Shown here in pieces: positions 330 through 40,738 of a stretch of 40,738 bases of DNA. Within the stretch, counting starts at the first letter, position 1, and every line of letters begins with the position of its first letter. Position numbers and translations under genes: made by a program. The DNA is from Paludibacteraceae bacterium (GTDB lineage: Bacteria; Bacteroidota; Bacteroidia; Bacteroidales; Paludibacteraceae), in the NCBI GenBank assembly GCA_017471285.1, contig JAFUUZ010000004.1, positions 1 through 40,738 of the forward strand, in the 5' to 3' direction. Under the pieces are notes generated by a model that made no database searches, was not told the DNA's origin, and worked only from the letters and a program-made list of their open reading frames with translations.

Positions 330-357
330 AATTCATAATTCATAATTCATAATTGAT
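330..357 (+). repeat. Heptamer array before a start codon
   Basis: Three exact AATTCAT heptamers (330-350) are followed by a variant, AATTGAT (351-357), whose last two bases are the first two of the ATG at 356. Confidence 0.85.
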
Positions 358-622
358 GAAGGTATTACAAACAGAAATAAAAATTATCAACGAATTAGAA
401 GGTATGGCAAAGCGTATTGTTTTTAGTAAAAAAGAGTTGGCAAAGTCCATATCCCGCCAGTTGGGTGTGGCGATCAGTCCGAATGAGTTCGGCCGATGGC
501 TTCAGATCATGGACGAGACGAAAGGTATCCCCCATTACGACAAACTGAGCAAGACATTGGACGCGGAGCAGGTGCGCGCCGTGAGCGAATGGCTCGGATA
601 CGAGTTGGAAGAGGGGTTATAG
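356..622 (+). CDS. Hypothetical 88-residue protein
   Basis: I do not recognise a family. The open frame can begin at a TTG (353) or the adjacent ATG (356); ATG is preferred. The protein is soluble, charged and probably helical, with no signal peptide. A stretch around residues 25-75 (KKELAKSISRQLGV, then NEFGRWLQIM and ending SEWLGYEL) has the spacing of a small helix-turn-helix or DNA-binding fold, but this is only an impression. It lies between two structured non-coding stretches and upstream of the small-gene cluster at 1032-1980. A heptamer array abuts its start. Base composition rises from AT-rich at the start to GC-rich downstream, so the first codons may be derived from the repeat. Confidence 0.6.
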   Translation: MKVLQTEIKIINELEGMAKRIVFSKKELAKSISRQLGVAISPNEFGRWLQIMDETKGIPHYDKLSKTLDAEQVRAVSEWLGYELEEGL

Positions 623-624
623 GG

Positions 625-656
625 CTATCGTGCACTAAAAAGGGTTCTATCGTGCA
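625..656 (+). repeat. Short direct repeat CTATCGTGCA
   Basis: CTATCGTGCA occurs at 625-634 and 647-656, each preceded by an AGGG-type sequence, giving a ~22-bp spacing just after the stop of the first gene. Confidence 0.6.
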
Positions 657-672
657 GGAGGGATGCTGATGA

Positions 673-704
673 TTTGGTCAGTTCGCGGAAAAGCAGTAAT
701 TTTG
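673..704 (+). promoter_or_regulatory. Promoter of the structured leader
   Basis: TTTG at 673-676, a 20-bp spacer, then TAATTTTG at 697-704 match the Bacteroidetes sigma factor consensus exactly. Transcription should start near 711, about 320 nt before the next start codon, at the edge of the first 29-bp repeat. Confidence 0.65.
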
Positions 705-710
705 TCGTCG

Positions 711-1031
711 GAAGCGGCAATCCATGACTGCGTTACTGCGGGAGCCCTAATGGAGACACCGATTAATAAACAAGCGGCAATCCATGACTGCGTTACTGCG
801 TAACTTGTATAATGGTTGCGCTTCCTCCTCTTCCCACAGATTAAAATCTGCGGGAGCCCCGGGGAATCTTTCAATCAGATAGGATAATGAACCGAAGGAG
901 CGTCTATCGCCTTATCCTCAGTTCTGACGGTTCAAAAAGGGATAGATTGAAAGAGAGGCCGGCTAAATGAAGAAGGCTCGCGCAATGATGCGCGAGAAAA
1001 GCAAAACGTTAAACCTAAGACATTAACAACA
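711..1031 (+). ncRNA. Long structured leader or non-coding RNA
   Basis: The gap 623-1031 holds no credible gene. The RNA predicted from the promoter at 673-704 contains, in order, two 29-bp direct repeats (712-740, 772-800), a hairpin of CCCACAGATT and AATCTGCGGG (835-856, one mismatch), an outer pairing CTTTCAATC 868-876 with GATTGAAAG 945-953, an inner pairing AGGATAA 881-887 with TTATCCT 912-918, and GAACCG 889-894 with CGGTTC 928-933. The last two cross, so they form an H-type pseudoknot or two exclusive states. An 8-bp hairpin with an ATGA loop (977-996) follows, then an A-rich run to the ATG at 1032. It may be a leader that senses something, or an independent RNA. I do not recognise it as RNase P, SRP or tmRNA. 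Confidence 0.5.
712..800 (+). repeat. Two 29-bp direct repeats, 60-bp period
   Basis: The same 29 bases, beginning AAGCGGCAATCC and ending TTACTGCG, occur at 712-740 and 772-800 with a 31-bp unrelated spacer. Within the unit ACTGCG itself is repeated. The dimensions resemble CRISPR, but there are only two copies and no cas genes. Confidence 0.8.
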
Positions 1032-1355
1032 ATGGCAAAAATCACATTACACGGTATGTTTGCCCGTGTGAAGGGGAAATTCAACCGTTCGGAAACGTTG
1101 TATTTCAAACGCTGCAATTGCGGTAAGGAGCAATTGGGTGTGGATCTGCTTAATCCAGTAAAGAAGAGCAAGAACGCAAAAGTGCTTGCCTGTCAAGCCG
1201 CGATGAAAGCCGCCATAGAAGCGGCGAAAGAGGCTTTAGCCGATCCGACGCAGCGCGCGACGCTCGAAGAGGAGTTCGCGAAACAAAGCAAGTATGACAC
1301 GCTGCAGCAGTATGCCGTGGCGAAGAAGTATGTCAAACCTGATTTCGGAGGGTAA
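1032..1355 (+). CDS. Hypothetical 107-residue protein, Bacteroidales small-gene cluster
   Basis: A soluble protein without signal peptide or membrane segment. It starts MAKITLHGMFARVKGKF, then has two cysteines close together (CNCGK near residue 28), a basic centre, and an alanine-rich helical stretch (AAMKAAIEAAKEALADP, about residues 56-72), ending with a YDTLQQYAVAKKYV segment. The start is a clear ATG after an A-rich leader. Its layout parallels the protein at 1642-1980 (short beta start with a GK motif, K/R-rich middle, then PTQ or QDQ, a Q-K segment and TL or TM plus Y near the end), so the two may be distant paralogues. It sits downstream of a long structured leader. Function is unknown. 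A role tied to nucleic acid is suggested only by the charge. Confidence 0.7.
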   Translation: MAKITLHGMFARVKGKFNRSETLYFKRCNCGKEQLGVDLLNPVKKSKNAKVLACQAAMKAAIEAAKEALADPTQRATLEEEFAKQSKYDTLQQYAVAKKYVKPDFGG

Positions 1356-1360
1356 GTAAA

Positions 1361-1388
1361 AATTCATAATTAAAAATTCAAAATTATG
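1361..1388 (+). repeat. Heptamer array filling a gap
   Basis: Four AATTNNN heptamers (AATTCAT, AATTAAA, AATTCAA, AATTATG) make up most of the gap between the genes at 1032 and 1386. The last three bases of the fourth unit are the ATG of the following gene. Confidence 0.8.
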
Positions 1389-1583
1389 ACACGTAAAGAA
1401 ATCCTCAAGGTCGTGATCTCGGTGCTGATTGCCGCGCTGACGGCGCTCGCAGCCGGACTGGGACTGAGTTCGTGCAACGTGACGCGGACCATCACCACCA
1501 AGTCCGAGTACTGGCAGAAAGCCGACACTTCGGTCATCATCCAGACCAAAACGATCGAAACGTATGATGCGTCGAAGAAGTAG
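1386..1583 (+). CDS. Small membrane-anchored or lipoprotein, 'smalltalk'-like
   Basis: A 65-residue protein with a short charged start (MTRKEIL), one hydrophobic helix over about residues 8-27, and a lipobox-like GLSSC that places Cys30 as a possible lipidation site. The rest is a short polar tail rich in Thr and Lys. This matches the general form of the very small membrane proteins called smalltalk in Bacteroidales, which are usually near small DNA-binding proteins; the match is from memory of the motif and not proven. Its TAG stop is the first three bases of a C/G palindromic repeat (1581-1608). It sits between two small cytoplasmic genes, probably in one transcript. Confidence 0.65.
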   Translation: MTRKEILKVVISVLIAALTALAAGLGLSSCNVTRTITTKSEYWQKADTSVIIQTKTIETYDASKK

Positions 1584-1608
1584 CCCCCGCCCCCTAAAGG
1601 GGGAGAAA
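1581..1608 (+). repeat. C/G palindromic element supplying a stop codon
   Basis: Starts with the TAG stop of the previous gene, then a C-rich flank and the palindrome CCCCCT-AA-AGGGGG (1590-1603). The copy at 1978-2005 is nearly identical and starts at a stop codon in the same way. Confidence 0.8.
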
Positions 1609-1641
1609 AACCTATTATCAACCATTAAACCAAAATTAACT

Positions 1642-1980
1642 ATGGGAAAAGTAGTATTTGAAGACCCGATCCATCATATCTCGGGCAAGATTGCGAAGAA
1701 ATTTCGCACCATATACAACTACATGAAAGCAACGGGTCTGAAGTTCACCTCTGTTCGCGGGGAAAGGACCAGCCAGCCGAATGCTAAGGAACTGGCGCTC
1801 CGAGAGCGGTTCACCGAAGTAAGCGCGATGGTCCGCACCCGCCGCAAAGATCTGAACAAGATCTCACAAGACCAGCTGGACTTCATTGCCCAGAAGGACC
1901 TGGCTACCGGCAAGAAGACCATGCGAGCATACTTATGGAAAGTATGCGGCGAGGAGTATGATGCCGCTCATCAAGGGTAG
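1642..1980 (+). CDS. Hypothetical 112-residue protein, Bacteroidales small-gene cluster
   Basis: The open frame continues upstream to 1564, but those codons run through the palindromic repeat. The ATG at 1642, preceded by an A-rich AAAATTAACT leader, is the sensible start and gives MGKVVFEDPIHHISGKI. The protein is basic and probably mostly helical, without signal peptide. It has an RGERTSQPNAKELALRERF segment near the middle and an AYLWKVCGEEYD end. I have an impression that this family is widespread and uncharacterised in Bacteroidales, where similar proteins start with a GK-x(7)-HHISGKI type sequence. It looks distantly like the protein at 1032-1355. The TAG stop belongs to a second copy of the palindromic repeat. 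Confidence 0.7.
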   Translation: MGKVVFEDPIHHISGKIAKKFRTIYNYMKATGLKFTSVRGERTSQPNAKELALRERFTEVSAMVRTRRKDLNKISQDQLDFIAQKDLATGKKTMRAYLWKVCGEEYDAAHQG

Positions 1981-2005
1981 CCCCCAGCCCCTAAAGGGGG
2001 AGGAG
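1978..2005 (+). repeat. C/G palindromic element, second stop-supplying copy
   Basis: Begins with the TAG stop of the gene at 1642-1980, then CCCCCAGCCCCT, AA, and AGGGGG (arms 1988-1992 and 1995-1999). It is close in sequence to the copy at 1581-1608. Confidence 0.8.
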
Positions 2006-2018
2006 GAACAGGGAAGAG

Positions 2019-2031: not shown

Positions 2032-2040
2032 TGTGTAACC

Positions 2041-2228: not shown

Positions 2229-2237
2229 ATCTTTTTT

Positions 2238-2265
2238 AGTTGTCAGTTTTCAGTTATCAGTAATC
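2238..2265 (-). repeat. Heptamer array at the stop of the surface protein gene
   Basis: On the minus strand the units are of the form ACTGANA (ACTGATA, ACTGAAA, ACTGACA), four units with variants. The TGA stop of the surface protein (2264-2266) overlaps the first unit. Confidence 0.8.
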
Positions 2266-5200
2266 ATTCTACTTTCTGGCCTGTGATGGTATAGAGGGCA
2301 CCATCACGGACGATATAGACTTGGTTATCTATGATAACCTTTTGGATTTGTAGTTTGTCATTTGTAGTTTGTGTTTGATCCACACCGGTGGTCACTGCCG
2401 GAGCATTGGACTGAATCAGTTTGATACCATACTCAGCATAGGTACCCTTATCCAGCGTGACGGTATAAGGACCGTATGCGAGATTCCAGATCGCGTTGCC
2501 GTTGCGGGTTACATACAGTTCCTGATTGTTCTGCATCTCCGTAGCCGAAGAGATCTGATAGGTTCCGTTCTCCGGAACAGAGATACCCAACGGATAGGTA
2601 GCGGTCTTGCCTACCGGAGCGGTGGTGTTGACACAGAGTTTCGCATTATAGCGGTTCACCCACATCTGCGCTACCTTGTTGCTGACCCCAGCCTTAGCGA
2701 GATCCAGACCGATGACATAGGTATCCTCCTTGTCTTCCAGAGTCTGGAGATAGATACGGTCTGTGCAACTCTCGCCGGCAGAGATCTGCACCTCATAGTA
2801 CGCATTGTCCACCACTGGAGCTACACGACGGCGAGGAGCACCGAAACCGGTATTATTTGCTTCTGCAACAACAGTCTTTGGATCTTTTACTTGGACAAAT
2901 ACCGGTTGACCGACAATCAGTTTATTATTTTTCATATCAATAGGATCATAGCTATCATCAACTGGTTTATATTTCTGTCCAAAGTTGGCTGTACCATATG
3001 TCTCAGCTTGGGCGTTGAGATAAGCATGATAGAGGGCAGGGTTAGCGATACCATTCCATCCTGCATCTATTACATTCGCAGACGAATGAGCATAGACGTT
3101 CAGTGAGGTAGTGAGAATCTGTCCATCTTTCTTCTTGAATCGTATAACATCTGCACCATTCACCATATAGATCATATAGAGTGTACCGGGTTGCATGATG
3201 CAGGTATTATTTTCGAAAGTCCAGTTGCTAGACGAAGCTCCGTTTGTTGCACGATCTTCACTATTGTAGGTCAATAGATAGAAATTAGAGTTGACAGATT
3301 GTTTAACTCCGTTAACGAAGATTCCGTCGGCTACAGAAACTTGCCACGGCACAGCCACTGCATACCATGTTTCTGCCTGAGCATTGATAGCCAGGTCGAA
3401 GTAAGCGTCGCCGGTCAAAGTAAGATAGTTAGCTCCTATCAGTTCACCGGAGGTTGCACCGTCGGAGGTAATAACGAGATCATGTTTGGTAGCAGGAGCA
3501 TTCAAGGTAACAGAGCCAGTAGCTGTAATCTCAAGATCCTCTGCTACTGCTGTAGCGCGGACCTCCGCGGAAAGAATAAGGTCTTCCGTAATAGTAACCT
3601 CTCCATAATCAGCTCCCGTTTTATTATCGCTCCATTTAACAAACTCATATCCGTCTGCCGGGATAGCTTGAATCGTCACTGATTCGCCTTCATCGTACGT
3701 ACCGGCACCAATGAGCGTAACTCCTGCAGGGATATTAGCCGAGAGCGTAACCGTATAACGGGTGTAGCGATTCTCCTCTCCTGAGAAGTATGGATAATAA
3801 GAAGCGTCTTCGGTTACAGTCTGAATCGTCTTGTTTGCGTCCAATCTATTCTTCCATACCATAGTATAGGTAGTATTGGCAGCCGGATCCTCTTTGGATA
3901 CCACCGGCGGGGTCGGCGTAGCACCATAAGGCAGAGACTCCGATTTCAGAATCTTTGTTTGGTTCTCATCATAGAAATCAATCGTATATTCTACCGGGTT
4001 CTCTGAATATTGCGCCACATAGATGGCATTGGTTGTAGCCGGAGCCAATGTCGGTTTCCAGCCTATAAAGGTATAAGAATATTCGCCAGTTGCCAGTTTT
4101 TCAGGTTCAGCACCTCCATATACAGGTGTTTCACCTGCCGGAGCCTCGTTTTGCACCTCTAACGTTGTACCATCATAATTCTTGAAGGTAATCACATGAG
4201 TAGAGGGCGGTTCGGGCAGCCAGGTGGCCGTATATGTCTGCTCTCCCACAACAGGACCGAGACCCGGTTCCCATTGGAGAATATATCCTGTACGAGTAGG
4301 AGCATTCTCGCAAACCGGCATCTCATCACGAGCGAGCAGATGTTTCTCTATCTCCATACCTCCGTCTTCCACAAAAGTAACCGTATATTTGATTTGTTTT
4401 TTCTCGTATGTAGCCGTGTAGGTCACATCACTCGTTACTTTACCTAACTCAGGAGACCAACCTGTGAAATCATAGGTATAATCAACATCCGCAGGACGAG
4501 TCGGGTTCGATCCGTTGTACTCAGCCATCGTACCGTAGGTGACGCGATACTCAACCTCCACGTCTTCGCCTTCACTTACATCATATTTGTACGATTTAAT
4601 AGGTGTGCCATCGTAATTTTGCCAAGTAATAACGAATGTCTTCTCTTTCCATTGTTCCTCAGCCTCGTCCCAATAATAATAGGTGTCATTCTCCGGATGA
4701 GTACAATGATAGAGGTTGTCCTTTTTCTCAACAGCCCACCACTGGCAATTCTCGGTCATCAGAATATATAGATTGCCTGCGGCATCGCTATAGGTGTGGG
4801 TTTCGGGATCAGCAGTCTTACCATTCGCTAAAGCCACATACTCTTGCGGTTTGGCATAGTATATGCCGCTGGCTTCATCATGAACGAAGCATCCTTCCAT
4901 CTTCAGTTTGGTCCACTTGCCACCCGTACCGTCTATATCGATATAGCAATATGAATCACCTGCTTCCGCGTTTCCTCCGGTCTTGACATAATCCGACTCG
5001 GCGGGTTCATCCAATTCGGGATGATTATTCAACCATGCGGAATAACAGATGGCTTCCTTACGAGTACTGCGTCCTTCCATCTGATTGATTTTTTCCGTAT
5101 AGTCTGCCGACTTAGCAGCCAGAGTAAACATAAATGTACCGGCATCCTCCACGGAAGAATAGATATTGGCTCCATGAGCCGTTGTATATACGTATCCACC

Positions 5201-8176: not shown

Positions 8177-8266
8177 ATCTTTTGTTTTTAAATTAGCATC
8201 TCGCTTAGTCGCTGTTCCCCATGTATGCGCAAGCACGGATGCGGGCGCAGCACAGAAAAAGCGGTG

Positions 8267-9384: not shown

Positions 9385-10347
9385 ATGAAAGGAATCATTT
9401 TAGCGGGCGGAAGTGCCACGCGTCTGTATCCACTGAGCAAAGCTATCAGCAAACAAATCATGCCGGTTTACGACAAGCCGATGATTTATTATCCGTTGAG
9501 TACCTTGATGTTAGCCGGTATCCGCGAGGTGCTGGTGATCAGTACGCCGCGGGACCTGCCGATGTTCGAAGAATTGCTGGGCGACGGCAGCCGGATAGGT
9601 ATGAAACTGAGCTACAAAGTGCAGAATGTGCCCAACGGGCTGGCGCAGGCTTTTGTATTAGGCAAGGATTTCCTGAACGGCGAGCCGGGATGTCTGATAT
9701 TGGGCGACAACATGTTCTACGGCCAGCATTTCGGCAGAATGCTGAAAGAGGCGGTTGCGACAGTCGAAAGCGGAAAGTCGAAAGATAAAAGCAGAGAGTC
9801 GAAAGCCGAAAGAGGCGGAGCGGTTATCTTCGGATACGAAGTAGCGGATCCGAGAGCCTACGGCGTAGTAGAGTTCAAAGAAGAAACCTCTCCCCAGCCC
9901 TCCCCTCAAGGGAGGGAGAATAGTTCCCAACTGATGGTTGTCAGTTTGGAGGAGAAACCGGCAGAGCCGAAGAGCAACTATGCGGTGCCGGGACTTTATT
10001 TCTACGACGAGACGGTATGCGAGAAAGCCGCCAACCTGCAACCCAGCGCCCGCGGAGAATACGAGATCACGGACCTGAACAAGCTATATTTAGAGGAAGG
10101 CACGCTGAGAGTGAAACTCTTCAGCCGCGGGTTTGCATGGCTGGACACGGGCAACTGCGACAGTCTGCTGGAGGCCGGTAATTTTATCGCTACCATCCAG
10201 AACCGGCAAGGATTCTACGTCAGCTGTATCGAAGAGATAGCCTGGCGCAACGGCTGGATCAGCACAGAGCAGTTAGCCCTGTTGGGCAAAGAGATGAAGA
10301 CCGCCTACGGACGCTATCTGGAGCGGCTGGCGGCGAAGGGGAGTTGA
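9385..10347 (+). CDS. rfbA: Glucose-1-phosphate thymidylyltransferase with two repeat-derived inserts
   Basis: Makes dTDP-glucose from dTTP and glucose-1-phosphate, the first step to dTDP-rhamnose for surface polysaccharide. Residues 1-30 (MKGIILAGGSATRLYPLSKAIS) hold the nucleotide-binding GGxGTRL-type loop, here with S-A in place of G-T; KQIMPVYDKPMIYYPLS and LILGDNMFYG follow. It is 320 residues against about 290 for the family. The excess matches two repeat-derived stretches: heptamers at 9763-9811 (residues ~127-142, a K/S/E-rich peptide) and a C/G palindrome at 9889-9930 (residues ~169-182, SPQPSPQGREN). Both lie between strands of the family fold, and the conserved SLEEKPAEPKSNYAVPGLYFYD resumes after them. 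The ATG at 9385 was chosen because the family starts MKGIILAGG. The TGA stop is inside the next heptamer array. The partner rmlB is 21 kb away. Confidence 0.92.
   Translation: MKGIILAGGSATRLYPLSKAISKQIMPVYDKPMIYYPLSTLMLAGIREVLVISTPRDLPMFEELLGDGSRIGMKLSYKVQNVPNGLAQAFVLGKDFLNGEPGCLILGDNMFYGQHFGRMLKEAVATVESGKSKDKSRESKAERGGAVIFGYEVADPRAYGVVEFKEETSPQPSPQGRENSSQLMVVSLEEKPAEPKSNYAVPGLYFYDETVCEKAANLQPSARGEYEITDLNKLYLEEGTLRVKLFSRGFAWLDTGNCDSLLEAGNFIATIQNRQGFYVSCIEEIAWRNGWISTEQLALLGKEMKTAYGRYLERLAAKGS
9763..9811 (+). repeat. Heptamer array inside rmlA
   Basis: Seven consecutive heptamers related to GTCGAAA (three exact copies; GCGGAAA, GCCGAAA, GATAAAA and GCAGAGA as variants). It is free of stops in the reading frame and encodes residues absent from most RmlA proteins. 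Confidence 0.85.
9889..9925 (+). repeat. C/G palindromic element inside rmlA
   Basis: A CCCCAG flank, then CCCTCCC (9898-9904), loop CTCAA, GGGAGGG (9910-9916) and a GAGAATAG tail. It is read in frame by rmlA. Confidence 0.85.
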
Positions 10348-10626
10348 TAGTTGATAGTTCTTATCTCGGCTAAGCCTCGAACGATCGGCTGAAGCCGTAT
10401 GGATAGTTGATAGTTGATAGTTCTTATCTCGGCTAAGCCTCGAACGATCGGCTGAAGCCGTATGGATAGTTGATAGTTGATAGTTGATAGTTGATAGTTC
10501 TTATCTCGGCTAAGCCTCGAACGATCGGCTGAAGCCGTATGGAGAGTTGAAAGTTGATAGTTGAAAGTTGAGAGTTGATAGTTGAGAGTTGACAGTTGAT
10601 AGTTGAGAGTTGAAAGTTGAAAGTTG
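10341..10626 (+). repeat. Composite array: 45-bp double-hairpin units and heptamers
   Basis: The 302-bp gap between rmlA and the sensor gene contains no gene. Three identical 45-bp units lie at 10358-10402, 10421-10465 and 10498-10542. Each holds TTCTTATCTCG, the small palindrome GGCT-A-AGCC, TCGAACGAT and the hairpin CGGCT-GA-AGCCG. They are separated by 18 and 32 bp made of GTTGATA heptamers, so spacing grows by whole heptamers. From 10543 to 10626 about twelve more heptamers follow, nearly all GTTGANA with the sixth base varying. No consensus promoter is visible, so the sensor gene may depend on read-through from rmlA. Confidence 0.9.
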
Positions 10627-25921: not shown

Positions 25922-26800
25922 ATGAATTTTGACGAATTATTTGCGCAGTACCCCTGCCCGTTTACCGATGAGCAAGTCAAGGCTCAAGTAGCAGAAATCG
26001 AAGCAAAACACTTCGACGAGAACAATAACGTGGAGGTTTGGAAAGAGTGTCTCCACCAGATCGACTATACCACCCTTTCCGCCGATGACACGATCGCCAA
26101 GGTAGAGAAGATGGCGAATGCGGTCAATAATTTCGAGAAAGACTTCCCCGGTATTCCGAATGTAGCGGCTATCTGCGTTTATCCCGCAATGGCGGAATAT
26201 GTGCGCGGCGCGCTCAAAGACCCCAAATTCAATATCGCGTGCGTCAGCGGCGGTTTTCCCGCTTCCCAGACCTTCCTAGAGGTCAAAGTGGCGGAAACGG
26301 CTATGGCTATCAAAGCCGGAGCTACGGAGATTGATATTGTGCTGAGCGTGGGTAAGTTCCTGGAGGGCAACTATCAGGAGTGCTTCGACGAGATTAGCGA
26401 ACTGAAAGCCGTTTGCGGAGACAAGCACCTCAAAGTGATCCTCGAAACAGGTCTGCTTAAAACGGCAGAGAACATTTGGAAAGCATCCATCCTCTCTATG
26501 TCGGCGGGATGTGACTTCATCAAGACTTCTACCGGTAAGATTGCCGTGAACGCAACGCCGGAGGCTACCTTTGTCATGTGTCACGCTATCAAGGCATGGC
26601 GCGAGAAAACGGGTATCAAGATGGGTTATAAGCCTGCCGGAGGAGTCTCCACTACCGAAGAGGCAGTGCAGCATTTCACACTCGTCAAAGAGATTCTGGG
26701 CGAGGAATGGCTCAACAATGAATCATTCCGTTTCGGAGCTTCACGCCTCGCCAACAACTTACTCTCTTCCATCGTTGGAAAAGAAACCAAATATTTTTAG
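25922..26800 (+). CDS. deoC: Deoxyribose-phosphate aldolase
   Basis: Splits 2-deoxyribose-5-phosphate to glyceraldehyde-3-phosphate and acetaldehyde in deoxynucleoside use. 292 residues, class I aldolase. The Schiff-base lysine is Lys201 in CDFIKTSTGK; the second active-site lysine is in MGYKPAGGVST (~239-249). Other landmarks: CVYPAM (~83-88), SGGFPAS and ATEIDIVLSVGKFLEG. Its TAG stop overlaps the first base of a GTCGAAA heptamer array that fills the whole gap to the next gene. Confidence 0.95.
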   Translation: MNFDELFAQYPCPFTDEQVKAQVAEIEAKHFDENNNVEVWKECLHQIDYTTLSADDTIAKVEKMANAVNNFEKDFPGIPNVAAICVYPAMAEYVRGALKDPKFNIACVSGGFPASQTFLEVKVAETAMAIKAGATEIDIVLSVGKFLEGNYQECFDEISELKAVCGDKHLKVILETGLLKTAENIWKASILSMSAGCDFIKTSTGKIAVNATPEATFVMCHAIKAWREKTGIKMGYKPAGGVSTTEEAVQHFTLVKEILGEEWLNNESFRFGASRLANNLLSSIVGKETKYF

Positions 26801-26827
26801 TCGAAAGACAAAAGTCGAAAGTCGAAA
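26800..26827 (+). repeat. Heptamer array that is the entire gap
   Basis: Four heptamers (GTCGAAA, the variant GACAAAA, then GTCGAAA twice). The first shares its G with the TAG of deoC; one base after the last unit is the ATG of the next gene. Confidence 0.85.
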
Positions 26828-26828
26828 G

Positions 26829-29180: not shown

Positions 29181-29217
29181 TAGTTGATAGTTGATAGTTG
29201 AAAGAAGTTGAAAGTTT
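29176..29217 (+). repeat. Heptamer array between nfn fusion and dacB
   Basis: Three GTTGATA, then GTTGAAA, a GAA break and another GTTGAAA. The first unit holds the TGA stop of the fusion gene, and the last holds the TTG proposed as the dacB start. Confidence 0.85.
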
Positions 29218-30590: not shown

Positions 30591-31380
30591 TACCAACACC
30601 CTGATGAAGGAGATGATCGCCAAAGGAGAATGGCAAGCAGGCGAAGAATACCTCTATACAGGCTTTCAAACGGCAGGCAGAGGCCAGAGCGGAAACGGAT
30701 GGGAGAGCGAAGAAGGAAAGAACCTGCTGTGCTCGATCTTAATCAGCCGTCAGCCATCAGCTGTCAGAAGTCAGCCTTTTTACCTCAATGTAGCGGTTTC
30801 CGTGGCGGTACACGAAGTAATCCGGTCTGTACTCTGTCAGCAAAGCGGTCTGTATTCTGTCAGCGAAGCGGTCTCAATCAAATGGCCCAACGACATCTAT
30901 TATGGAGACAAGAAGATAGCAGGCATATTGATAGAAAATGCCCTCTTCGGCAGCGAACTGAAATACGCCGTTGCAGGCATAGGGCTGAATGTGAACCAGA
31001 CGGAGTGGCTCTCCAATGCCCCCAACCCCGTCTCCATGCGACAGATCAGCGGAGAGGAGTATCACATCCATGAGTTGATGAGAACGCTGATGGACGAGAT
31101 ACACACCGTCCTCGCCATGGAGAGCGAAGAAGTGTGGAGCTACTACCGCGCGCACATCTATCGCAAAGACGGTTTTTGGCCGTTCGTAGAAAGAGAAGTG
31201 AGTATTGCGCCCACCACGAACTACTCCCCCTCTCTTGAAGAGAGGGACGGGGAGAGGTTAGAACGACCTATCTTCCTCGCGAAGATTGAAAATGTGCGGA
31301 CAGATGGAGAACTTGAGCTTCGGGACCAAGACGGCAATCTGCGTACCTACCACTTCAAACAAGTGAGATATGTAATCTGA
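30568..31380 (+). CDS. birA: Biotin-[acetyl-CoA-carboxylase] ligase with three repeat-derived inserts
   Basis: Attaches biotin to the carboxyl carrier protein. 270 residues, without the DNA-binding domain of the E. coli protein. Biotin and ATP site: TDSTN (~7-11), FQTAGRGQSGNGWES (~34-48), then IKWPNDIYYGDKKIAGILIEN (~106-126) and VAGIGLNVNQ (~134-143). Three stretches derive from repeats: five heptamers at 30743-30777 (residues ~59-70), a 23-bp duplication at 30823-30875 (~86-103) and a C/G palindrome at 31219-31260 (~218-231). The catalytic motifs are intact, and the inserts fall between them, so the enzyme is probably active. The ATG overlaps the end of dacB. Confidence 0.92.
   Translation: MYIERTDSTNTLMKEMIAKGEWQAGEEYLYTGFQTAGRGQSGNGWESEEGKNLLCSILISRQPSAVRSQPFYLNVAVSVAVHEVIRSVLCQQSGLYSVSEAVSIKWPNDIYYGDKKIAGILIENALFGSELKYAVAGIGLNVNQTEWLSNAPNPVSMRQISGEEYHIHELMRTLMDEIHTVLAMESEEVWSYYRAHIYRKDGFWPFVEREVSIAPTTNYSPSLEERDGERLERPIFLAKIENVRTDGELELRDQDGNLRTYHFKQVRYVI
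30743..30777 (+). repeat. Heptamer array inside birA
   Basis: Five adjacent units TCAGNNN (CCG, CCA, CTG, AAG, CCT as the variable part). On the opposite strand this reads as CTGA-containing units, the same form as the intergenic arrays. Confidence 0.85.
30823..30875 (+). repeat. 23-bp tandem duplication inside birA
   Basis: Two near-identical 23-bp units (two base differences) plus a partial third. Each is a 16-bp part GTCAGCRAAGCGGTCT joined to a heptamer GTAYTCT. The 16-bp core is also in the glycosyltransferase gene at 34847-34910. Confidence 0.85.
31219..31260 (+). repeat. C/G palindromic element inside birA
   Basis: CCCTCTCTT (31228-31236) with AAGAGAGGG (31238-31246), flanked by CTCCCC and GGGGAG. 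Read in frame. Confidence 0.85.
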
Positions 31381-34465: not shown

Positions 34466-35533
34466 TTACAAAAAAGCGTTATTTTGTTTAATCCATGTGG
34501 CTAAATACTCTTGTTCCGGCTGTCCCGGAGTAGGAATAAACTCAATGGAAGCCCCACCCGACCTCCCCATAGAGGGGAGGAGAGAGAGTGCCTCCAGATC
34601 CATGATGGTGGAATAACCGGAACGGACGATGATATGTTTGGCACCCTTCAGCGCAGCAGCCAATTCGGCATCACTCAGATACGGGACGAGGGTGATTGTA
34701 CCGCGTTTGATACGGGTATTGGGACGATTCAACAATCCCTGGACGATCAGCACATTCTCTTCCGCATCAGCGTATCGCCGTACCAACTCCCGTTCCAACA
34801 TCGTCCGCTGCGGCTCCAGCCCGCTGAGGACGGCGACGATGGCATAAGACCGTTGCGCTGTAGGATCGTTGCGTTGTAAGACCGTTTCACTGTTAGACCG
34901 CTTCGCTGTAAGACTAAAGCGGCTCAGGGGACCGATATAAGACAAGGTACAAAGGGACGATGTACGATGTACGAAGGATTTTTGAGGATGCCCCAATTCG
35001 CCGCTCAGGCTCTTTTCCTGTTCCTCATAGTCCGGCACCCACACCTTATTATACCGCGTGTATATACGTGCGTGCATGCGTGCGGCGAGCGGTTCCAGCC
35101 ACCGCCAGCCTTTCGGCAGCATGATATGCAACTGATGGGTGATATAGATGGTGATGGGAAAGCCCCCCTCGGTCCCCCCATGAAGGGGGGAAGATGTATA
35201 GAGCCCGAAGCGGTTGTCGGATACCACTTGGTCTATCTGCTCCTCGCGCAAGAGAGATTGCAGCATCACATGGTCCTTGTATGCCCATAGAGCGAGCTTC
35301 GGTAATGCCTTTACCATCGCCAGGACCTGACTCCTGCCTTTGCCGTACCGCAGGTTCAAGGGTGCCAGACAGACGTACCGCTGTTTCGGGAAATGCCGCC
35401 GCAGCAGGGTCAGACTCTCGCCGTCACCACCCAGAATCACTTCGTGCCCCTCGTCCAGAAAACGCTGAACAAGCGGCACACAACGGCTGGCATGACCCAG
35501 TCCCCAATTCAATGGCGCTACGAGAACCTTCAT
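34466..35533 (-). CDS. GT28-like glycosyltransferase with four repeat-derived inserts
   Basis: 355 residues with the form of MurG/GT28-like glycosyltransferases: MKVLVAPLNWGLGHASRCVPLVQRF at the start (glycine-rich acceptor loop), EGHEVILGGDG, VVSDNRFGLY (~98-107), IYITHQL, and in the C-terminal half HIIVRSGYSTIMDLEAL plus IPTPGQPEQEYLA (nucleotide-sugar site). The substrate is unknown; surface glycan or glycolipid synthesis is inferred. Four stretches are repeat-derived and in frame: a C/G palindrome (residues ~111-124), heptamers (~186-196), four 16-bp units (~208-229) and another palindrome (~317-328). The last sits right between the conserved glycine-rich helix and the IPTPGQ loop. Either the protein tolerates this or it is no longer active. 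It follows the radical SAM gene by 27 bp, a gap made mostly of heptamers. Confidence 0.82.
   Translation of the reverse strand: MKVLVAPLNWGLGHASRCVPLVQRFLDEGHEVILGGDGESLTLLRRHFPKQRYVCLAPLNLRYGKGRSQVLAMVKALPKLALWAYKDHVMLQSLLREEQIDQVVSDNRFGLYTSSPLHGGTEGGFPITIYITHQLHIMLPKGWRWLEPLAARMHARIYTRYNKVWVPDYEEQEKSLSGELGHPQKSFVHRTSSLCTLSYIGPLSRFSLTAKRSNSETVLQRNDPTAQRSYAIVAVLSGLEPQRTMLERELVRRYADAEENVLIVQGLLNRPNTRIKRGTITLVPYLSDAELAAALKGAKHIIVRSGYSTIMDLEALSLLPSMGRSGGASIEFIPTPGQPEQEYLATWIKQNNAFL
34551..34582 (-). repeat. C/G palindromic element near the 3' end of the glycosyltransferase gene
   Basis: CCTCCCC (34562-34568), loop ATAGA, GGGGAGG (34574-34580), with a GCCCCACCCG flank at 34551-34560. Confidence 0.85.
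34847..34910 (-). repeat. Four 16-bp tandem units inside the glycosyltransferase gene
   Basis: Four 16-bp units (34847, 34863, 34879 and 34895). In the gene's sense the last one reads TACAGCGAAGCGGTCT; the others differ at one to five bases. The core matches the 16-bp part of the birA duplication. Confidence 0.85.
34954..34974 (-). repeat. Heptamers inside the glycosyltransferase gene
   Basis: Three units (GGGACGA, TGTACGA twice on the plus strand), with weaker related sequence towards 34945. In the gene's sense TCGTACA. Confidence 0.75.
35161..35196 (-). repeat. C/G palindromic element inside the glycosyltransferase gene
   Basis: CCCCCC (35174-35179), loop ATGAA, GGGGGG (35185-35190), with an AGCCCCCC flank at 35161-35168. 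Confidence 0.85.
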
Positions 35534-35535
35534 CA

Positions 35536-35556
35536 GTGAAAACTGAATAATGACTG
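35536..35556 (-). repeat. Heptamers between the radical SAM and glycosyltransferase genes
   Basis: GTGAAAA, CTGAATA and ATGACTG are adjacent, with TGA at exact 7-base spacing. They fill most of the 27-bp gap. Confidence 0.7.
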
Positions 35557-35560
35557 TTTT

Positions 35561-36340: not shown

Positions 36341-36344
36341 CTCC

Positions 36345-36386
36345 TCTAATCTCTAAACACTAAACTCTAAACACTAAACACTAATC
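36345..36386 (-). repeat. Heptamer array across the dnaG stop
   Basis: Six units on the plus strand of the form WCTAAAC or WCTAATC. On the minus strand GTTTAGN; the TAG of dnaG (36374-36376) is in one unit, and the array runs on to the next gene. Confidence 0.85.
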
Positions 36387-38350
36387 ACCCTGTTCCCCAG
36401 AATCTTGCAGATCTCGTTCCGCGCTTTGATAAGCTCCGGCTGATGCGCCAGAATCTGCATCTGGCGGTCTATATCATTATTCGCCTGCGCATCCTTCAGC
36501 CCCTCCTCCAACTCGGCTATCTGGATATTGATTACCGTCAGCTTAATCTCGTATAACAATTGCGTCACCAGTTCGCCGAGGCGGTCCTCAAAATCCGCTG
36601 ACGCAAACTGATATTTCTCGGCTATCATATCTATGGCGATAGCGCTTATCAGCGGATCGGGGTGGAACTTGAAGAACTGCTCCGCCTTGAATCCTTCGTC
36701 CTTGCAATGCCGTTTGAACTCGTCCATTATCTGTTGGAACACTTCATACGGCGGCTTGATCTCGTCTTGTTCGAGCGTGTAGATAATCACTTCGCCGATA
36801 CTGTACACCACCCCTTCTACCTCTATGGGACGCTCGCCATAACGCACCAATAATTGCAGCAGGTTATAATAGTTTTTCTCCAGCTGGCTCTTTGGCGTTA
36901 TCTGCGGACGCTGCGGATGGACCGGTTTGACCGCCACCTCTGCTATCGGTTCCGGACTTGTGCTCTCCGGTTCCCGGGTCTCTGCCTCTGCCGCCTGCTC
37001 TTCCTGCTTACGGTGTTCCTCCATCCGTTTGCGGCGCAGTTTGATCACTTCATTGGTCAGTATCTGTTCCCCTATATGCAGCCTCTCCGCACAATCTTTG
37101 ATATAGACCTGGCGCGTGATCATATCCGGGATGATAGCAATGGAAGCCGTGATATCCTTTATCAGCGCAGCGCGTTTCTGCGGGTTGTCACCGGCATCGT
37201 TGCTGAGCAAGGCGGATTTGAAGCGGATGAAATCAGTCTTGTTCGCCTCGATATACCGGATAAACTCCGTAGAGTCGTGGTTCTGCGCGTAGCTGTCCGG
37301 GTCTTCTCCGTCCGGCAGCAGCACCACATTGACGTTGAACCCTTCCTCCAGAAACATGTCTATTCCTCGCAGCGCCGCATGAATACCTGCCGCATCACCG
37401 TCATAGAGCACCGTGATATTGGAGGTGAACCGCTGTATCAGCCGTATCTGCGGCTTGGTCAGCGCCGTGCCGCCGCTCGCCACCACATTCTCTATCCCGC
37501 TCTGGTGCATCGAGATCACGTCCATCTGGCCTTCTACCAGATAGCACATGTCCGCACGGGAGATAGCCTGCTTGGCTTGGAAGAGACCGTACAACTCGTT
37601 GGTCTTGGAATAGATGATGGAGTCCGGCGAGTTGACGTATTTGCCTACGTTCTCTTTCTTCTTCAATATACGTCCGGCGAAAGCGACGGGCTTGCCGCTG
37701 ACGGTGAAGATAGGGAACATCACGCGGTCGCGGAAACGGTCATACAGCCGGCCGTCTTCGCTCTTGCCTACCACTCCTACACCGATCTTGGTATCTACAT
37801 CATTGACGATAAACTCCTCCTTGAATCCTTTCTCCTTCAGCGCTTTCGCCAGCGGGTTGCCTTTCTCCGGCGAATAGCCGAGCTGGAACTTGCGGATGAT
37901 ATCGTCGCGCAGACCGCGTTCGCGGAAATAGCCCAGACCGATAGCCTGTCCCTCCGGCGTGTCCCATAACTGGGACTGAAACCATTTGTTGGCGAAATCA
38001 TTGACCACAAACATGGACTCGCGGTTATCCTGCCGCTGCTGTTCCTCCGCCGTCATCTCGCGTTCCTCCACCTCGATATGGTATTTCTTGCCCAGCTGTT
38101 TCACCGCCTCGACGAACGTACACTGCTCTATCTCCATGATGAACTTGAGTGCATGTCCGCTGGCTCCGCAGCCGAAACATTTGTATATACCCTTGGAGGG
38201 ACTGACAGTAAAAGACCCTGTCTTTTCCGTATGGAAAGGACAGAGTCCGATAAGGTTCGCTCCGCGTTTGCGGAGTGTTACATAGTCGCTGACAACCTCT
38301 TCTATCTTAGCCGCAGCAAAAATCCTATCTATCGTTTCTCTCGGAATCAT
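36374..38350 (-). CDS. dnaG: DNA primase
   Basis: Makes RNA primers at the replication fork. 658 residues. Zinc-binding domain Cys37-x2-His40-x17-Cys58-x2-Cys61 (CPFH to CFGC); toprim catalytic core with Glu273 (LVEGQMDVI) and Asp317/Asp319 (LYDGDAAGIHA), then DGEDPDSY; and a C-terminal helicase-binding domain (~500-658). A Glu/Gln/Pro-rich linker is at ~465-510. The ATG at 38350 fits the family start MIPRETIDRIF; the open frame runs 30 codons further up over a hairpin. The last few codons and the stop lie in a heptamer array. Confidence 0.96.
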   Translation of the reverse strand: MIPRETIDRIFAAAKIEEVVSDYVTLRKRGANLIGLCPFHTEKTGSFTVSPSKGIYKCFGCGASGHALKFIMEIEQCTFVEAVKQLGKKYHIEVEEREMTAEEQQRQDNRESMFVVNDFANKWFQSQLWDTPEGQAIGLGYFRERGLRDDIIRKFQLGYSPEKGNPLAKALKEKGFKEEFIVNDVDTKIGVGVVGKSEDGRLYDRFRDRVMFPIFTVSGKPVAFAGRILKKKENVGKYVNSPDSIIYSKTNELYGLFQAKQAISRADMCYLVEGQMDVISMHQSGIENVVASGGTALTKPQIRLIQRFTSNITVLYDGDAAGIHAALRGIDMFLEEGFNVNVVLLPDGEDPDSYAQNHDSTEFIRYIEANKTDFIRFKSALLSNDAGDNPQKRAALIKDITASIAIIPDMITRQVYIKDCAERLHIGEQILTNEVIKLRRKRMEEHRKQEEQAAEAETREPESTSPEPIAEVAVKPVHPQRPQITPKSQLEKNYYNLLQLLVRYGERPIEVEGVVYSIGEVIIYTLEQDEIKPPYEVFQQIMDEFKRHCKDEGFKAEQFFKFHPDPLISAIAIDMIAEKYQFASADFEDRLGELVTQLLYEIKLTVINIQIAELEEGLKDAQANNDIDRQMQILAHQPELIKARNEICKILGNRVISV

Positions 38351-38368
38351 TCTGCATACCCGGAGCGT

Positions 38369-38387
38369 CTTCCCGCTAATCGGGAAG
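38369..38387 (-). other. Hairpin in the dnaG leader
   Basis: CTTCCCG (38369-38375), loop CTAAT, CGGGAAG (38381-38387), about 20 nt before the dnaG start. It has no T run, so it is probably not a terminator; it may be a control or processing site. Confidence 0.5.
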
Positions 38388-38414
38388 AGCGGTCTCCACC
38401 TAGTAGGGTTATTA

Positions 38415-39152
38415 TTAATCTTGGTACCATAAATAAACACCGACTTTGATATTCCATTGATCCAGCCGGCCGCGGGTATGGTTACCGTTCTCGAAATCGC
38501 GGTTCTTATACGGGTTGATCAGACCGAAATCATATCCTCCGCGCAGGAAATAACGTTTGTATTGGAATCCGGCACCCACGCCCCATGTCACATTCAGACG
38601 GCGCAGGTTTTCATCGTTGACAGTTGTTTTATAGGCGCTGTTTCTGGGACCATAAGTAGTGGTGATATCGCCCGTATAGAGATCCTCTTCACGCCTGTCC
38701 TGACGCATATCGAAAGTCAGACCGCACTGGAGGGTAGGACCGGTATAGAGCATCAGATAGGTCTCTTTGGCTATCTCGAACTTATACTGCCAGTCCACAA
38801 ACAGCTCCAGTTCCTGATACGTGATCAGCTGGCGTCCCTGCGGGTATTTGCCGTAAGAGGCATTGATTGATTTCCACCCTCCGTTGGATACGCCGAACGT
38901 ATAGTTCAAACCGATGGAGGTTCCGAAACCGGCAATGATACTGCCGTCATACACCACACCTACCTTGAAACCGTTCATCTTCACCACATGGCTCAGCGAG
39001 TCTTTCGCATACGAAGGATTATCCGGGCTGTTGAGCCGCAATATCGGCTGCGCCCATCCTATCTGCAGACCGAATCCCTGTTTGGGCAGATCAACGGCGA
39101 ACACACCTGCTGCCACACAGGCCAAAATCACTGTTAAAAAAACTTTCTTCAT
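38415..39152 (-). CDS. Outer-membrane beta-barrel protein
   Basis: 245 residues. Signal peptide ~1-19 (MKKVFLTVILACVAAGVFA). The rest is alternating strands with aromatic residues at strand ends (FGLQIGWAQPIL, IGLNYTFGV, LYTGPTLQCGLTF, WGVGAGFQYKRYFLRGGYDFGL) and a terminal strand ending with an aromatic residue (KVGVYLWYQD), as in small porin-like barrels. The start at 39152 has an AGGAG sequence 7 bases upstream, a rare Shine-Dalgarno-like site here. The role is unknown. It lies between the OstA-like gene and dnaG. Confidence 0.85.
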   Translation of the reverse strand: MKKVFLTVILACVAAGVFAVDLPKQGFGLQIGWAQPILRLNSPDNPSYAKDSLSHVVKMNGFKVGVVYDGSIIAGFGTSIGLNYTFGVSNGGWKSINASYGKYPQGRQLITYQELELFVDWQYKFEIAKETYLMLYTGPTLQCGLTFDMRQDRREEDLYTGDITTTYGPRNSAYKTTVNDENLRRLNVTWGVGAGFQYKRYFLRGGYDFGLINPYKNRDFENGNHTRGRLDQWNIKVGVYLWYQD

Positions 39153-39171
39153 ATATCTTCTCCTTTCATTT

Positions 39172-39212
39172 TTCTTATCTCGCTCTGCTCGAACGATTAT
39201 TGCTACGCAATT
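39172..39212 (+). repeat. Divergent copy of the double-hairpin unit
   Basis: TTCTTATCTCG and CTCGAACGAT are shared with the 45-bp units at 10358-10542, but the loops differ: CTCTG in the first, and ATTGC-TAC-GCAAT as the second hairpin. Confidence 0.75.
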
Positions 39213-39232
39213 TTCACCTTTCATTTTTCACC
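39211..39232 (-). repeat. Heptamers at the OstA-like stop
   Basis: On the minus strand GTGAAAA, ATGAAAG and GTGAAAA. The TGA stop of the OstA-like gene (39214-39216) is in the last one. Confidence 0.7.
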
Positions 39233-40738
39233 TTCCGGAACACATCCTGCGCGTCCGTGGGTCTCACCTCTGCCGCCCAGAAGAAAAGCGCCAGACGGTC
39301 GCCTCCGCTCGGGATCTGGTCCATCGGATAGAGCACTCCCGTCGTCTCTTTCGTAAAACGCATATGGTGCATCTGCCGGTCTTCTATATACATCCGGACG
39401 AAACTGCTCTCCGTCGTGTTCAGCCCCACATAGTCGCCGCCGTCTTCTTTGGCGTAGTAGATGGTCAGCGCATTGCCGCTCATGTCGATGATATCCAGCT
39501 CTCCGTCTTTGATATAGGCGGTCACTTCCTTTCCGCTCATCTGGTTGTAATAGTCGATCGAGTCCTCCATCACGCATAGCGCCTTCCCCACTCCGTACAG
39601 GTGCTCCACTGCGCCGTTGACGATGTAAATCGTCATGCTGTCCGCCGATATCTGCTGGTTCTCGTTCCAGCAGATCGGATGGATATACAGATGCATCGTG
39701 GAGTCGGACCCCAGATATACCATCGAGTCGCACACCATTTGCGCGTCGTTCCGGTACACCCGTACGCCGTAATGCCCGCGTACGCGGCGGTAGGTGCTGT
39801 CCAGCAAGGCGGAATCGGTATAATGCAGCTCCTCCGTAAACAGCGTGTCCGCGTGGATATACGTGATATGCGCGGTGTCCGACCAGTCCACCATCAGCGC
39901 GCTGTCGGTGGCATAACCGCGGCTGTTCTCCTCCCACATCTGCCCGTACTCGCCGTAGAGGGTTGCTTCGTGGGTGGAGTCGCGCATCTCCATCCTGCCC
40001 AGTATCTCTCCGAAACCGATTCGCTTGTCGTAGTAGATTGTATCGCCGGTCATGAACCTGCCGTCGGAATGGTGTACGACAGACCGGTCAAGCAGCATGG
40101 ATTGTTCGTTATCGGTGTTGTACCATCCGCGGGAGGAATGGATATCCGTCTCTTCCTCGTAGATGATTTCTGTCGGGCTGATGATATCCGCAATCTTGGT
40201 GTCGGTGTTGTAAAGCATCGTGTCGCTCGTCAGCACGAACTTCGGGTTGACCAGTTTCACCCCGTCGCTGAACACGGCTTGCTTGGTGTTCGGACGGTAG
40301 TTGCCGCGAAGGGAAGTCAGGGTGTTGAGCGAGTCCTGCACTTCGCCGCCGGTCCAGTAATACGCAACACCTGCCGCGCGGTCGTAGTTCATACTGTCCG
40401 TCGTCAGGATCGTCGGATTGCCGTCTTTGCGGCCGTGGATCAGTTTCACATGACGGCGTAATCGCGCAAGCTTGGTGTTCCCGTCGTAAAACAGCTTGTC
40501 GCCGAAACCCTCCAGCGTATCGCCTTGCACAAAACGCACATGACCGAAAGCATCCAGCGAATTTGTCTTCTCGTAGAAATAGGCGCTGTCGCAATACATC
40601 AGCATTTCGTCATGGCGGAAGAGGACATTGCCCTTCAGAATCTGCGCATCCGATAGCCTCTCCTGGTCAAACTGCAGGTTGTTTGCACGCTCCAGATACA
40701 CCATCGTCTGGGAAATTGAAAATTGAAAATTGAAAATT
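39214..40738 (-). CDS. OstA-like organic solvent tolerance/LPS transport protein, partial
   Basis: A protein of the OstA (LptA/LptD N-domain) type: repeated short strands with G-x-V-x-F and D-x-A-Y-F-Y patterns (ILKGNVLFRHDEMLMYCDSAYFYE, ~21-44 from the first Met), TLEGFGDKLFYDGNTKLARLRR and later DSMVYLGSDSTMHLY. Such proteins carry or shape lipopolysaccharide in the periplasm. The first Met in the window is at 40704, but no signal peptide follows it, and the frame is open to the window edge through a heptamer array (40708-40738), so the true start is probably outside the window. At least 496 residues are present. Confidence 0.85.
   Translation of the reverse strand, partial: IFNFQFSISQTMVYLERANNLQFDQERLSDAQILKGNVLFRHDEMLMYCDSAYFYEKTNSLDAFGHVRFVQGDTLEGFGDKLFYDGNTKLARLRRHVKLIHGRKDGNPTILTTDSMNYDRAAGVAYYWTGGEVQDSLNTLTSLRGNYRPNTKQAVFSDGVKLVNPKFVLTSDTMLYNTDTKIADIISPTEIIYEEETDIHSSRGWYNTDNEQSMLLDRSVVHHSDGRFMTGDTIYYDKRIGFGEILGRMEMRDSTHEATLYGEYGQMWEENSRGYATDSALMVDWSDTAHITYIHADTLFTEELHYTDSALLDSTYRRVRGHYGVRVYRNDAQMVCDSMVYLGSDSTMHLYIHPICWNENQQISADSMTIYIVNGAVEHLYGVGKALCVMEDSIDYYNQMSGKEVTAYIKDGELDIIDMSGNALTIYYAKEDGGDYVGLNTTESSFVRMYIEDRQMHHMRFTKETTGVLYPMDQIPSGGDRLALFFWAAEVRPTDAQDVFRKVKNER
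40708..40738 (-). repeat. Heptamer array at the window edge
   Basis: ATTGAAA units on the plus strand (AATTTTC in the sense of the OstA-like gene), at least four, running off the end of the window. Confidence 0.8.

Follow-up and report, generated by a model that had tools for sequence, protein, structure and literature searches.

Tandem arrays of 7-nucleotide units (heptamers) were examined in a stretch of 40,738 nucleotides (the window) from a Paludibacteraceae bacterium of the Bacteroidales (GenBank assembly GCA_017471285.1, contig JAFUUZ010000004.1), in which they lie at gene ends, in intergenic spacers and within genes. The window is contig C19 of source genome G000, which comprises 1.55 Mb in 87 contigs and is 55% complete; its nearest protein matches in the genome collection were metagenome-assembled genomes (MAGs) of uncultured Bacteroidales/Paludibacteraceae, several of them from rumen or reticulum. 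Genes were modelled with our own hexamer-based script and no standard annotator, and start positions are especially uncertain. Arrays were detected by self-match at each lag, a scan that is stricter than Tandem Repeats Finder (TRF, score 30). At the gathering threshold, Rfam recognised one tRNA and nothing else in the window, and the window copies of the palindromic element listed below had no match. The following features were located:

328..354 (unstranded): ATAATTC heptamer array that stops one base short of the start codon at 356
1353..1386 (unstranded): degenerate heptamer/14-mer array that reaches the ATG at 1386; that open reading frame (ORF) is not among the script's calls
2233..2266 (minus strand): TTACTGA TAACTGA AAACTGA heptamers, preceded by AATGA, directly after the stop of gene 2264-8236
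9758..9812 (plus strand): in-gene array of GTCGAAA type in the RfbA-like gene 9385-10347, net addition of 14 residues (42 nt) relative to most near congeners
9890..9922 (plus strand): in-frame palindromic insert in the RfbA-like gene, resembling repetitive extragenic palindromic (REP) sequences; the added residues are missing in most congeners read
10342..10626 (plus strand): composite of AGTTGAN arrays and three identical 44-bp palindromic elements
10360..10403 (plus strand): 44-bp palindromic element, copy 1
10423..10466 (plus strand): 44-bp palindromic element, copy 2
10500..10543 (plus strand): 44-bp palindromic element, copy 3
26799..26828 (plus strand): AGTCGAA heptamer spacer between the TAG at 26798-26800 and the ATG at 26829
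29175..29214 (plus strand): AGTTGAT/A heptamer spacer that supplies the TGA at 29178-29180 and continues as an imperfect run to the TTG start at 29208
30743..30776 (plus strand): in-gene TCAGCCN heptamers, gene 30568-31380
34957..34974 (minus strand): in-gene TCGTACA heptamers, 2.6 units, gene 34466-35533
35534..35560 (minus strand): degenerate heptamer-like spacer, under the detection threshold
36344..36388 (minus strand): GTTTAGW heptamer array that supplies the stop of gene 36374-38440; G021 has a related array there
39174..39227 (minus strand): variant of the palindromic element with about three heptamers (GGTGAAA AATGAAA GGTGAAA), the array being under the thresholds
40713..40738 (unstranded): AAATTGA heptamer array at the contig end

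The initial annotation of the window had assigned six stops (2264, 10345, 26798, 29178, 36374 and 39214) to heptamers, and according to the gene models each of them lies in or directly at such units. TRF arrays coincide with these stops or come within 2 nt of them in five cases, all but 39214, and the stricter scan placed arrays over two, 29178 and 36374. The first heptamer (AGTTGAT) of the composite at 10342..10626 supplies the TGA stop at 10345-10347, and the minus-strand heptamers within 39174..39227 supply the stop at 39214, the palindrome variant CTTATCTC..TCGAACGAT occupying 39174-39197 on the plus strand. Four starts had been described as touching heptamers; 26829 abuts an array and 1386 abuts a degenerate 14-mer array, whereas 356 is one base past its array and 29208 lies 6 nt past the strict array, within the imperfect continuation. 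Among the gaps said to consist wholly or mostly of heptamers, 26801-26828 is exactly four of them (the spacer after the TAG at 26798 reads TCGAAAG ACAAAAG TCGAAAG TCGAAAG, and G033 has a related array at that junction), but 29181-29207 contains one 10-nt step and 35534-35560 gave no TRF array at score 30. Many units fit the proposed form RYTGANA, although CTAAACA, ATAATTC, TCAGCCN and ACGATGT do not, and the named in-gene units GTCGAAA, TCAGCCN and TCGTACN were all found in genes, the last with just 2.6 units.

Prevalence and placement of period-7 arrays

When lags 2-21 were scanned in the window, strong runs appeared solely at 7 (6 arrays), 14 (3) and 21 (1), and ten Markov-2 controls of the window contained none. 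The heptamer excess suspected from the window was borne out in a larger sample of G000 (the window and 40 further stretches, 587 kb; 467 genes, coding fraction 87.6%), where 87 period-7 arrays were detected and composition-matched sequence was essentially array-free (1, 0 and 0 arrays in three Markov-3 controls). The remaining periods up to 13 gave 0-13 arrays each, and at longer periods there were 58 arrays at 14, 20 at 15 and 34 at 21; periods 8 (8 arrays) and 11 (13 arrays) exceed the controls too, yet are several-fold rarer than period 7. Stretch L051 holds one array of each of these two kinds, with period 8 at 3961-3983 (TCCTAGGT) and with period 11 at 4834-4876 (CGACGGTCAAC). In an unbiased set of 32 stretches (408 kb of G000, picked without regard to arrays), exact arrays of at least three copies numbered 15 at period 7 and 0-3 at periods 5, 6 and 8-12, with none at period 7 in five Markov-4 controls and period 4 at the control level. 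The arrays thus fall into the class of heptanucleotide simple sequence repeats, in which 7-nt units exceed chance and other short periods are rarer. Ten congeners, sampled at 40 kb each, contained 42 arrays at period 7, 23 at 14, 12 at 11 and 7 at 8; twenty further congeners, sampled at up to 20 kb each, contained 16 arrays in 347 kb, from 8 of the 20 genomes, and twenty genomes from other families of the order contained 2 in 256 kb. Similarly, the eight nearest MAG loci held 9 arrays in 77 kb and 66 other Bacteroidales loci 11 in 623 kb.

In the unbiased set, 20 of 44 arrays were wholly in-gene and 24 were not, and with non-coding DNA amounting to 14% of these stretches, array density was about seven times greater outside genes. 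All but one of the 24 lay between co-directional genes (the other at a contig edge), and 10 covered a stop codon, against 1.5 expected under random non-coding placement (maximum 5 in 300 trials). The ten congeners gave a similar picture, as 22 of their 42 arrays were in-gene and 10 of the 20 others covered a stop (2.0 expected, maximum 6), so that the proposal that the arrays shape gene ends and spacers is upheld in both samples. Junction arrays of the full G000 sample were co-directional in 43 cases, convergent in 6, divergent in none and at edges in 8; divergent gaps accounted for 0 of 49 assignable arrays in G000 (P 0.0005 by gap length) and for 1 of 20 in the congeners (P 0.04). The covered stops were TGA in 18 of 27 cases, compared with 194 of 764 other stops (P 1e-5, G000 and congeners pooled). 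Starts, which had been coupled with stops in the initial annotation, behaved differently: overlap with start codons was at chance (2 vs 1.7 expected in the unbiased G000 set, 4 vs 2.0 in the congeners), and starts within 3 nt of an array were above chance in G000 (7 vs 1.9 expected) but not clearly so in the congeners (5 vs 2.3). With overlap at the chance level and abutment at most weak, start codons were rejected as the main target. Period-11 arrays were not enriched at stops (1 vs 1.6 expected), which indicates that the stop effect is not generic to repeats; period-8 arrays (3 vs 0.8 expected) are too rare to judge.

The arithmetic noted earlier for the window is right and forms the core of a reading-frame filter: because 7 exceeds a multiple of 3 by one, at least three units in a row display the unit in all three frames. 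At the 43 co-directional sites of G000, stop triplets were sense-rich in 32, antisense-rich in 8 and tied in 3. Sixteen of these arrays cover a stop, 15 of them sense-rich and one tied, and without the stop-covering arrays the strand bias was not significant (17 vs 8, P 0.11; with the congeners 21 vs 10, P 0.07). Because stop-covering arrays are nearly bound to be sense-rich, the frame rule filters the arrays but does not prove that they are a signal. The same filter is seen within genes, where one third to half of the arrays are found, in frame and stop-free.

Insertions and unit turnover across species

Thirty in-gene arrays were assigned to 27 proteins, in which they encode short heptad peptides such as NYQLSTINYQLST (G000). 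A Pfam match at E 1e-5 was obtained for 25 of the 27, and by coordinate comparison 13 of the 30 arrays lie fully, and 2 partly, within the stretch of the best match. The 13 matches that fully hold an array are to a BipA-type GTPase, a receiver domain, TatC, GcpE, Ala_racemase_N, two AMP-binding domains, DegT, a glycosyltransferase 4, an M49 peptidase, an LD-carboxypeptidase, an FAD-dependent protein and, with a discontinuous domain match, a 2-hydroxyacid dehydrogenase. For comparison with phase-variation contingency loci, in which repeats switch surface or virulence genes through a change of frame, the proteins with in-gene arrays are varied, largely housekeeping enzymes, and their arrays are in frame. 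Alignment of 30 loci of the RfbA-like protein showed that its 14 extra residues relative to most near congeners derive from GTCGAAA-type heptamers. Long inserts of a different kind occupy this first loop in G016, G005 and G012, which shows that the loop is tolerant, and the region of the second, palindromic insert is lengthened also in G021, G035 and G009. TatC proved a poor test of insertion, since the loop varies among the congeners read.

Fillers of the same loop were compared in the DegT protein, which had a match in 37 of 37 genomes; of these, 19 loci, one from G000 and 18 from congeners, were taken to be the same protein, and the remaining matches were weaker and paralogue-like. The loop between DAAQAIDSYY and PLGSIGHLA is empty in four of the 19 (G030, G025, G002, G009) and in eight is filled by differing units with a lag-7 identity of 0.74-0.94 (G000, G003, G029, G004, G012, G021, G026, G015); weaker fillers for which lag 7 is still the best of lags 4-12 occur in G007 (0.53) and G032 (0.47), palindromic fillers, judged by eye, in G035, G019, G033 and G028, and one that is neither heptameric nor palindromic in G006. 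The loop is in frame in all 19; compared with the empty loop, each filler adds a multiple of 3 nt, which in most cases is not a multiple of 7. The fillers of G033 and G028 (L284 and L286) are an identical 78-nt palindromic insert in proteins with 81% and 78% identity to G000, the result of either recent transfer or contamination of one MAG.

Junctions between genes gave a corresponding result. At the junction 29180/29208, the runs read by eye in different species are built on AGTTGAT, TTTGACA, AATTGTG, AATTTTT, AACGGTT, GCTAATA or CATAAAT, and other species have a tight overlap of GTGA type. Over all syntenic co-directional junctions (134 junction-by-species cells), 52 were tight, 18 had period 7, 6 period 8, 1 period 11 and 57 belonged to none of these groups. 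Most of the arrays compared at orthologous sites have changed their unit, and between G015 and G029 (85.6% identity) one array is identical, one similar and several are replaced or missing.

The units are also species-biased. Pairs of arrays had a unit in common in 11.5% of cases within a genome and 3.4% between genomes (0 of 500 label permutations), and in the congeners alone in 11.3% and 2.8%, respectively (0 of 2000 permutations). These dialects were followed by counting exact 18-mers of units, overlapping matches included, in 37 genomes, with the reversed pattern as control. AGTTGAT 18-mers were present in 9 of the 37 genomes, with 22 matches in G000 and no more than 8 in any other, GTCCATT 18-mers occurred in seven genomes (10-17 in five, 3 and 1 in two), and those of GGTTATT and AGCCAAA were confined to G003 (3 matches) and G015 (4 matches), respectively. 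The reversed controls gave no match for GTCCATT and AGCCAAA and one each in G003, G006 and G034 for GGTTATT; that of AGTTGAT is uninformative because the unit reads nearly the same backwards.

A palindromic passenger accompanies part of the G000 arrays. The 44-bp element occurs in 14 copies in the 587 kb, three of them in the window; 12 are identical, one has a mismatch and one is truncated at a contig end. GTTGA is present in the left flank of 12 and in the right flank of 12 of the 14 copies, those lacking it being contig-cut or flanked by one-base variants (AATTGAA, AGTCGAA), and 7-nt periodicity is clear (identity of at least 0.7 over about 30 nt) in nine of the left flanks and six of the right. 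The heptamer register is preserved across the joint AGTT, 42 bp, GA-N-AGTTGA (42 = 6 x 7). Folding of the single-stranded element is modest (z -2.0, with 12 of 200 shuffles folding equally well). Its core, CTTATCTC-(variable stem-loop)-TCGAACGAT, occurs in 32 of the 37 genomes, whereas its reversed control matched once; the inner stems differ in sequence, and of 29 distinct ones, 24 and 27 are complementary at the two outer positions, respectively. A period-7 run lay within 60 nt of the core in 11 of 13 copies of the G000 GGCTAAGCC subfamily, compared with 3 of 33 distinct copies outside it. The passenger element, and not the heptamer arrays as such, therefore qualifies as a dispersed short palindrome of the REP kind.

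Explanations for the arrays

We consider it rather probable that the arrays result from lineage-specific duplication or slippage in 7-nt steps together with exchange between arrays, the products being sieved by translation. Tandem duplication or slippage in steps of 7 nt would create arrays strongly and continuously and keep them in being, and loci of the same genome would swap array DNA, which would produce the dialects. An array of at least three units with a stop on the sense strand would close every frame and be tolerated at gene ends, where the upstream gene would end at the first stop and the downstream gene begin at or after the last unit, making a change in copy number harmless; an array without a sense stop would be open in every frame and tolerated as an in-frame loop filler. 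Most arrays would accordingly be near-neutral. Tolerance and the frame filter explain the pattern. The suggestion that the repeats act as a system was not substantiated, given that 20 of 44 are in-gene, that strand bias off stops is not significant and that the same junctions are array-free in sister species. A dedicated trans-acting activity might instead write or copy 7-nt repeats with a species-preferred unit, either as a bacterial counterpart of telomeric repeat addition or as exchange machinery that makes arrays alike throughout the genome; the period would then be set by the machine and the products tolerated at gene ends and in loops. This we regard as quite unlikely.

Several observations weigh against duplication, slippage and exchange as the whole explanation. 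A 7-nt step in copy number was never seen directly, the closest pairs being different species of 86-95% identity with few shared arrays. The process is patchy, as 2 of the ten congeners (G026, G035) had no period-7 array in 40 kb and 12 of the twenty further ones had none in up to 20 kb each. Arrays at orthologous sites shared a unit in 4 of 21 pairs, compared with 4 of 117 other cross-species pairs, which implies that some arrays were inherited and re-edited and not born anew. Units matched their own empty orthologous site no better than other empty sites (5.12 vs 5.05; 7 better, 5 worse, n=12), and local birth of arrays from the empty site is therefore without support. Likeness of units to the downstream start region (5.41 vs 4.79 of 7, n=32) is significant, although small and partly due to adjacency. 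Finally, variation restricted to one column with six positions fixed (AGTTGA followed by N) reached P < 0.05 in 8 of 40 arrays, five of them below 0.01; this is unexpected under plain slippage with random mutation and may reflect duplication of variant units.

The arrays could alternatively be selected signals for termination and re-initiation, in which NTGA (TTGA, GTGA, ATGA) overlaps stop and start in every frame and allows ribosomes to terminate on one gene and re-initiate on the following one at any copy number; the phylum rarely relies on Shine-Dalgarno sites. The orientation of the junction arrays (43 co-directional and none divergent), the greater frequency of NTGA on the sense strand (26 of 43, against 6 of 43 antisense) and the excess of starts within 3 nt of arrays in the unbiased G000 set all agree with such a role, which is possible at some junctions. 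As a general account it appears unlikely, considering the array-free junctions of sister species, the arrays inside genes, the start overlap at chance level and the lack of significant strand bias away from stops. We give about the same low weight to the proposal that heptamers owe their spread to mobile palindromic elements, of the REP type or resembling miniature inverted-repeat transposable elements (MITEs), and serve as the tails of these elements or as sites where they land. It would account for the flanking GTTGA of the 44-bp element and its 12 identical copies, for the wide distribution of the core with its mostly complementary inner stem, for a similar composite in G007 (L329, by eye) and for the DegT loop being filled by palindromes or heptamers alike, but many catalogued arrays are without such an element, and outside the G000 GGCTAAGCC subfamily period-7 runs are rarely near core copies (3 of 33). 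Matches to Y1_Tnp were sparse, with one weak match in the 55%-complete G000 and some match in 16 of the 37 genomes (above the cut-off in 12), and the 40 kb of G026, which has the strongest match, contained no array. A Y1 or REP-associated tyrosine transposase (RAYT) as the driver is without support in this comparison, in which no correlation was computed. The sole Y1_Tnp-domain protein found in G000 (367 aa, L179 on G000:C52) lies between genes that by eye resemble a type I restriction-modification set.

A telomerase-like trans-acting enzyme, writing 7-nt repeats from a short template that differs by species, would fit the fixed unit length, the species-biased unit sequence and the occurrence of arrays at unrelated sites; yet the 69 unit classes of the G000 sample (every one-base variant counted) are many for one template, and we judge this reading highly improbable. 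Least credible, with a chance close to nil, is an origin in chance, base composition or assembly artefact. Arrays make up 0.5% of the bases, yet 4 of the 62 sampled contig ends are no more than 10 nt away from one, so assembly does suffer at arrays; against this, chance and base composition are rejected on the basis of the Markov-2, Markov-3 and Markov-4 controls (0-1 arrays at most), public MAGs of several projects carry arrays at like density (9 in 77 kb), and in-gene copies are in frame. If the arrays do arise by duplication or slippage with exchange, a mutational habit with a fixed step of 7 rewrites gene boundaries and protein loops across the genus, and the same junction or loop with different arrays or none in sister species constitutes a set of natural replicates. 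Why bacteria favour 7 as a repeat step, and to what extent mutation pressure, and not selection, sets gene spacing, stop-codon choice and loop length, would then become testable.

Relation to known repeats and further observations

Rickettsia palindromic elements are in-frame insertions within protein genes and form fixed palindromic families; the arrays described here are alike in their in-frame insertion and differ in being short-unit tandem arrays of changing sequence that stand beside palindromes. REP sequences and bacterial interspersed mosaic elements (BIMEs) go with RAYT transposases. The passenger palindrome is REP-like, but no REP-associated transposase set was identified here, and core copies, except in one G000 subfamily, mostly lie outside heptamer arrays. 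Closest in kind are the TAACTGA direct repeats of marine Beggiatoaceae, some Cyanobacteria and five Bacteroidetes (MacGregor 2015, PMC4679880), which, in the sections of that paper available to us, are described as intergenic repeats near starts that, read forward, bring stops in every frame; 13 sets overlap an upstream stop, and reverse copies occur in ORFs. The same sections already make the all-frames arithmetic for these repeats, report two Bacteroidetes with other heptamers in the same intergenic regions (these regions being shorter and repeat-free in relatives) and indels mostly in 7-nt steps between two Cyanothece strains, and relay the suggestion by Mrazek et al. 2007 that DNA polymerase interacts with a stretch of 7 nt. 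The excess of heptanucleotides among long simple repeats is likewise credited to Mrazek et al. 2007 in the available parts of PMC4679880 and PMC4692102. The likeness to the TAACTGA system lies in 7-base intergenic tandem repeats with stops in all frames, and one window array contains TAACTGA itself. In the account available, however, the main genome of that system has one dominant sequence with one-base variants rarely repeated, and in-ORF copies are mostly at protein edges or in hypothetical proteins, whereas here no single unit dominates (of the 69 classes of the G000 sample the AGTTGAT class is the commonest), species have dialects and arrays lie in frame within conserved domains.

The GGGAATC and GGGGAYT heptamers of Xanthomonas and Nostoc, treated as G-quadruplex formers in the portion of PMC4692102 at hand, share period 7, an intergenic bias and variation of length and sequence between the same Xanthomonas genes; their units are G-rich, unlike the mostly AT-rich units found here, in which stop-codon content is tied to location. 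According to the excerpt available of PMC12699852, some repeats with 6-9-bp units are enriched in prokaryotic phyla and overall repeat density is high in Bacteroidota, and the accessible part of PMC4060949 contains nothing on heptamers. Thus heptanucleotide excess, all-frame-stop TAACTGA repeats, other heptamers in Bacteroidetes and G-rich heptamers are already known, and what is new is that the period stays fixed while units turn over, that species have dialects and that conserved enzyme loops are repeatedly filled in frame; searches of the open-licence literature of PubMed Central (PMC) brought up no account of heptamer dialects with many units in Bacteroidales.

Three further observations concern repeats or duplicated DNA in the sample. 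Palindromic repeats of the CCCCAGCCC..GGGAGGG type lie at 1580-1610, 1980-2005, 9890-9922 and 28160-28222 of the window, partly within genes (the RfbA-like gene and gene 26829-29180). A small ORF with a heptamer leader (AAAATTCAAAATTATGACACG) is near-identical at 1372-1460 of the window and at 4766-4917 of L046 and looks like a duplicated or mobile segment. Lastly, about 2.4 kb of near-identical DNA is present on two contigs (L035 17522-19973 and L040 5116-7567), representing either a recent duplication or an assembly overlap.

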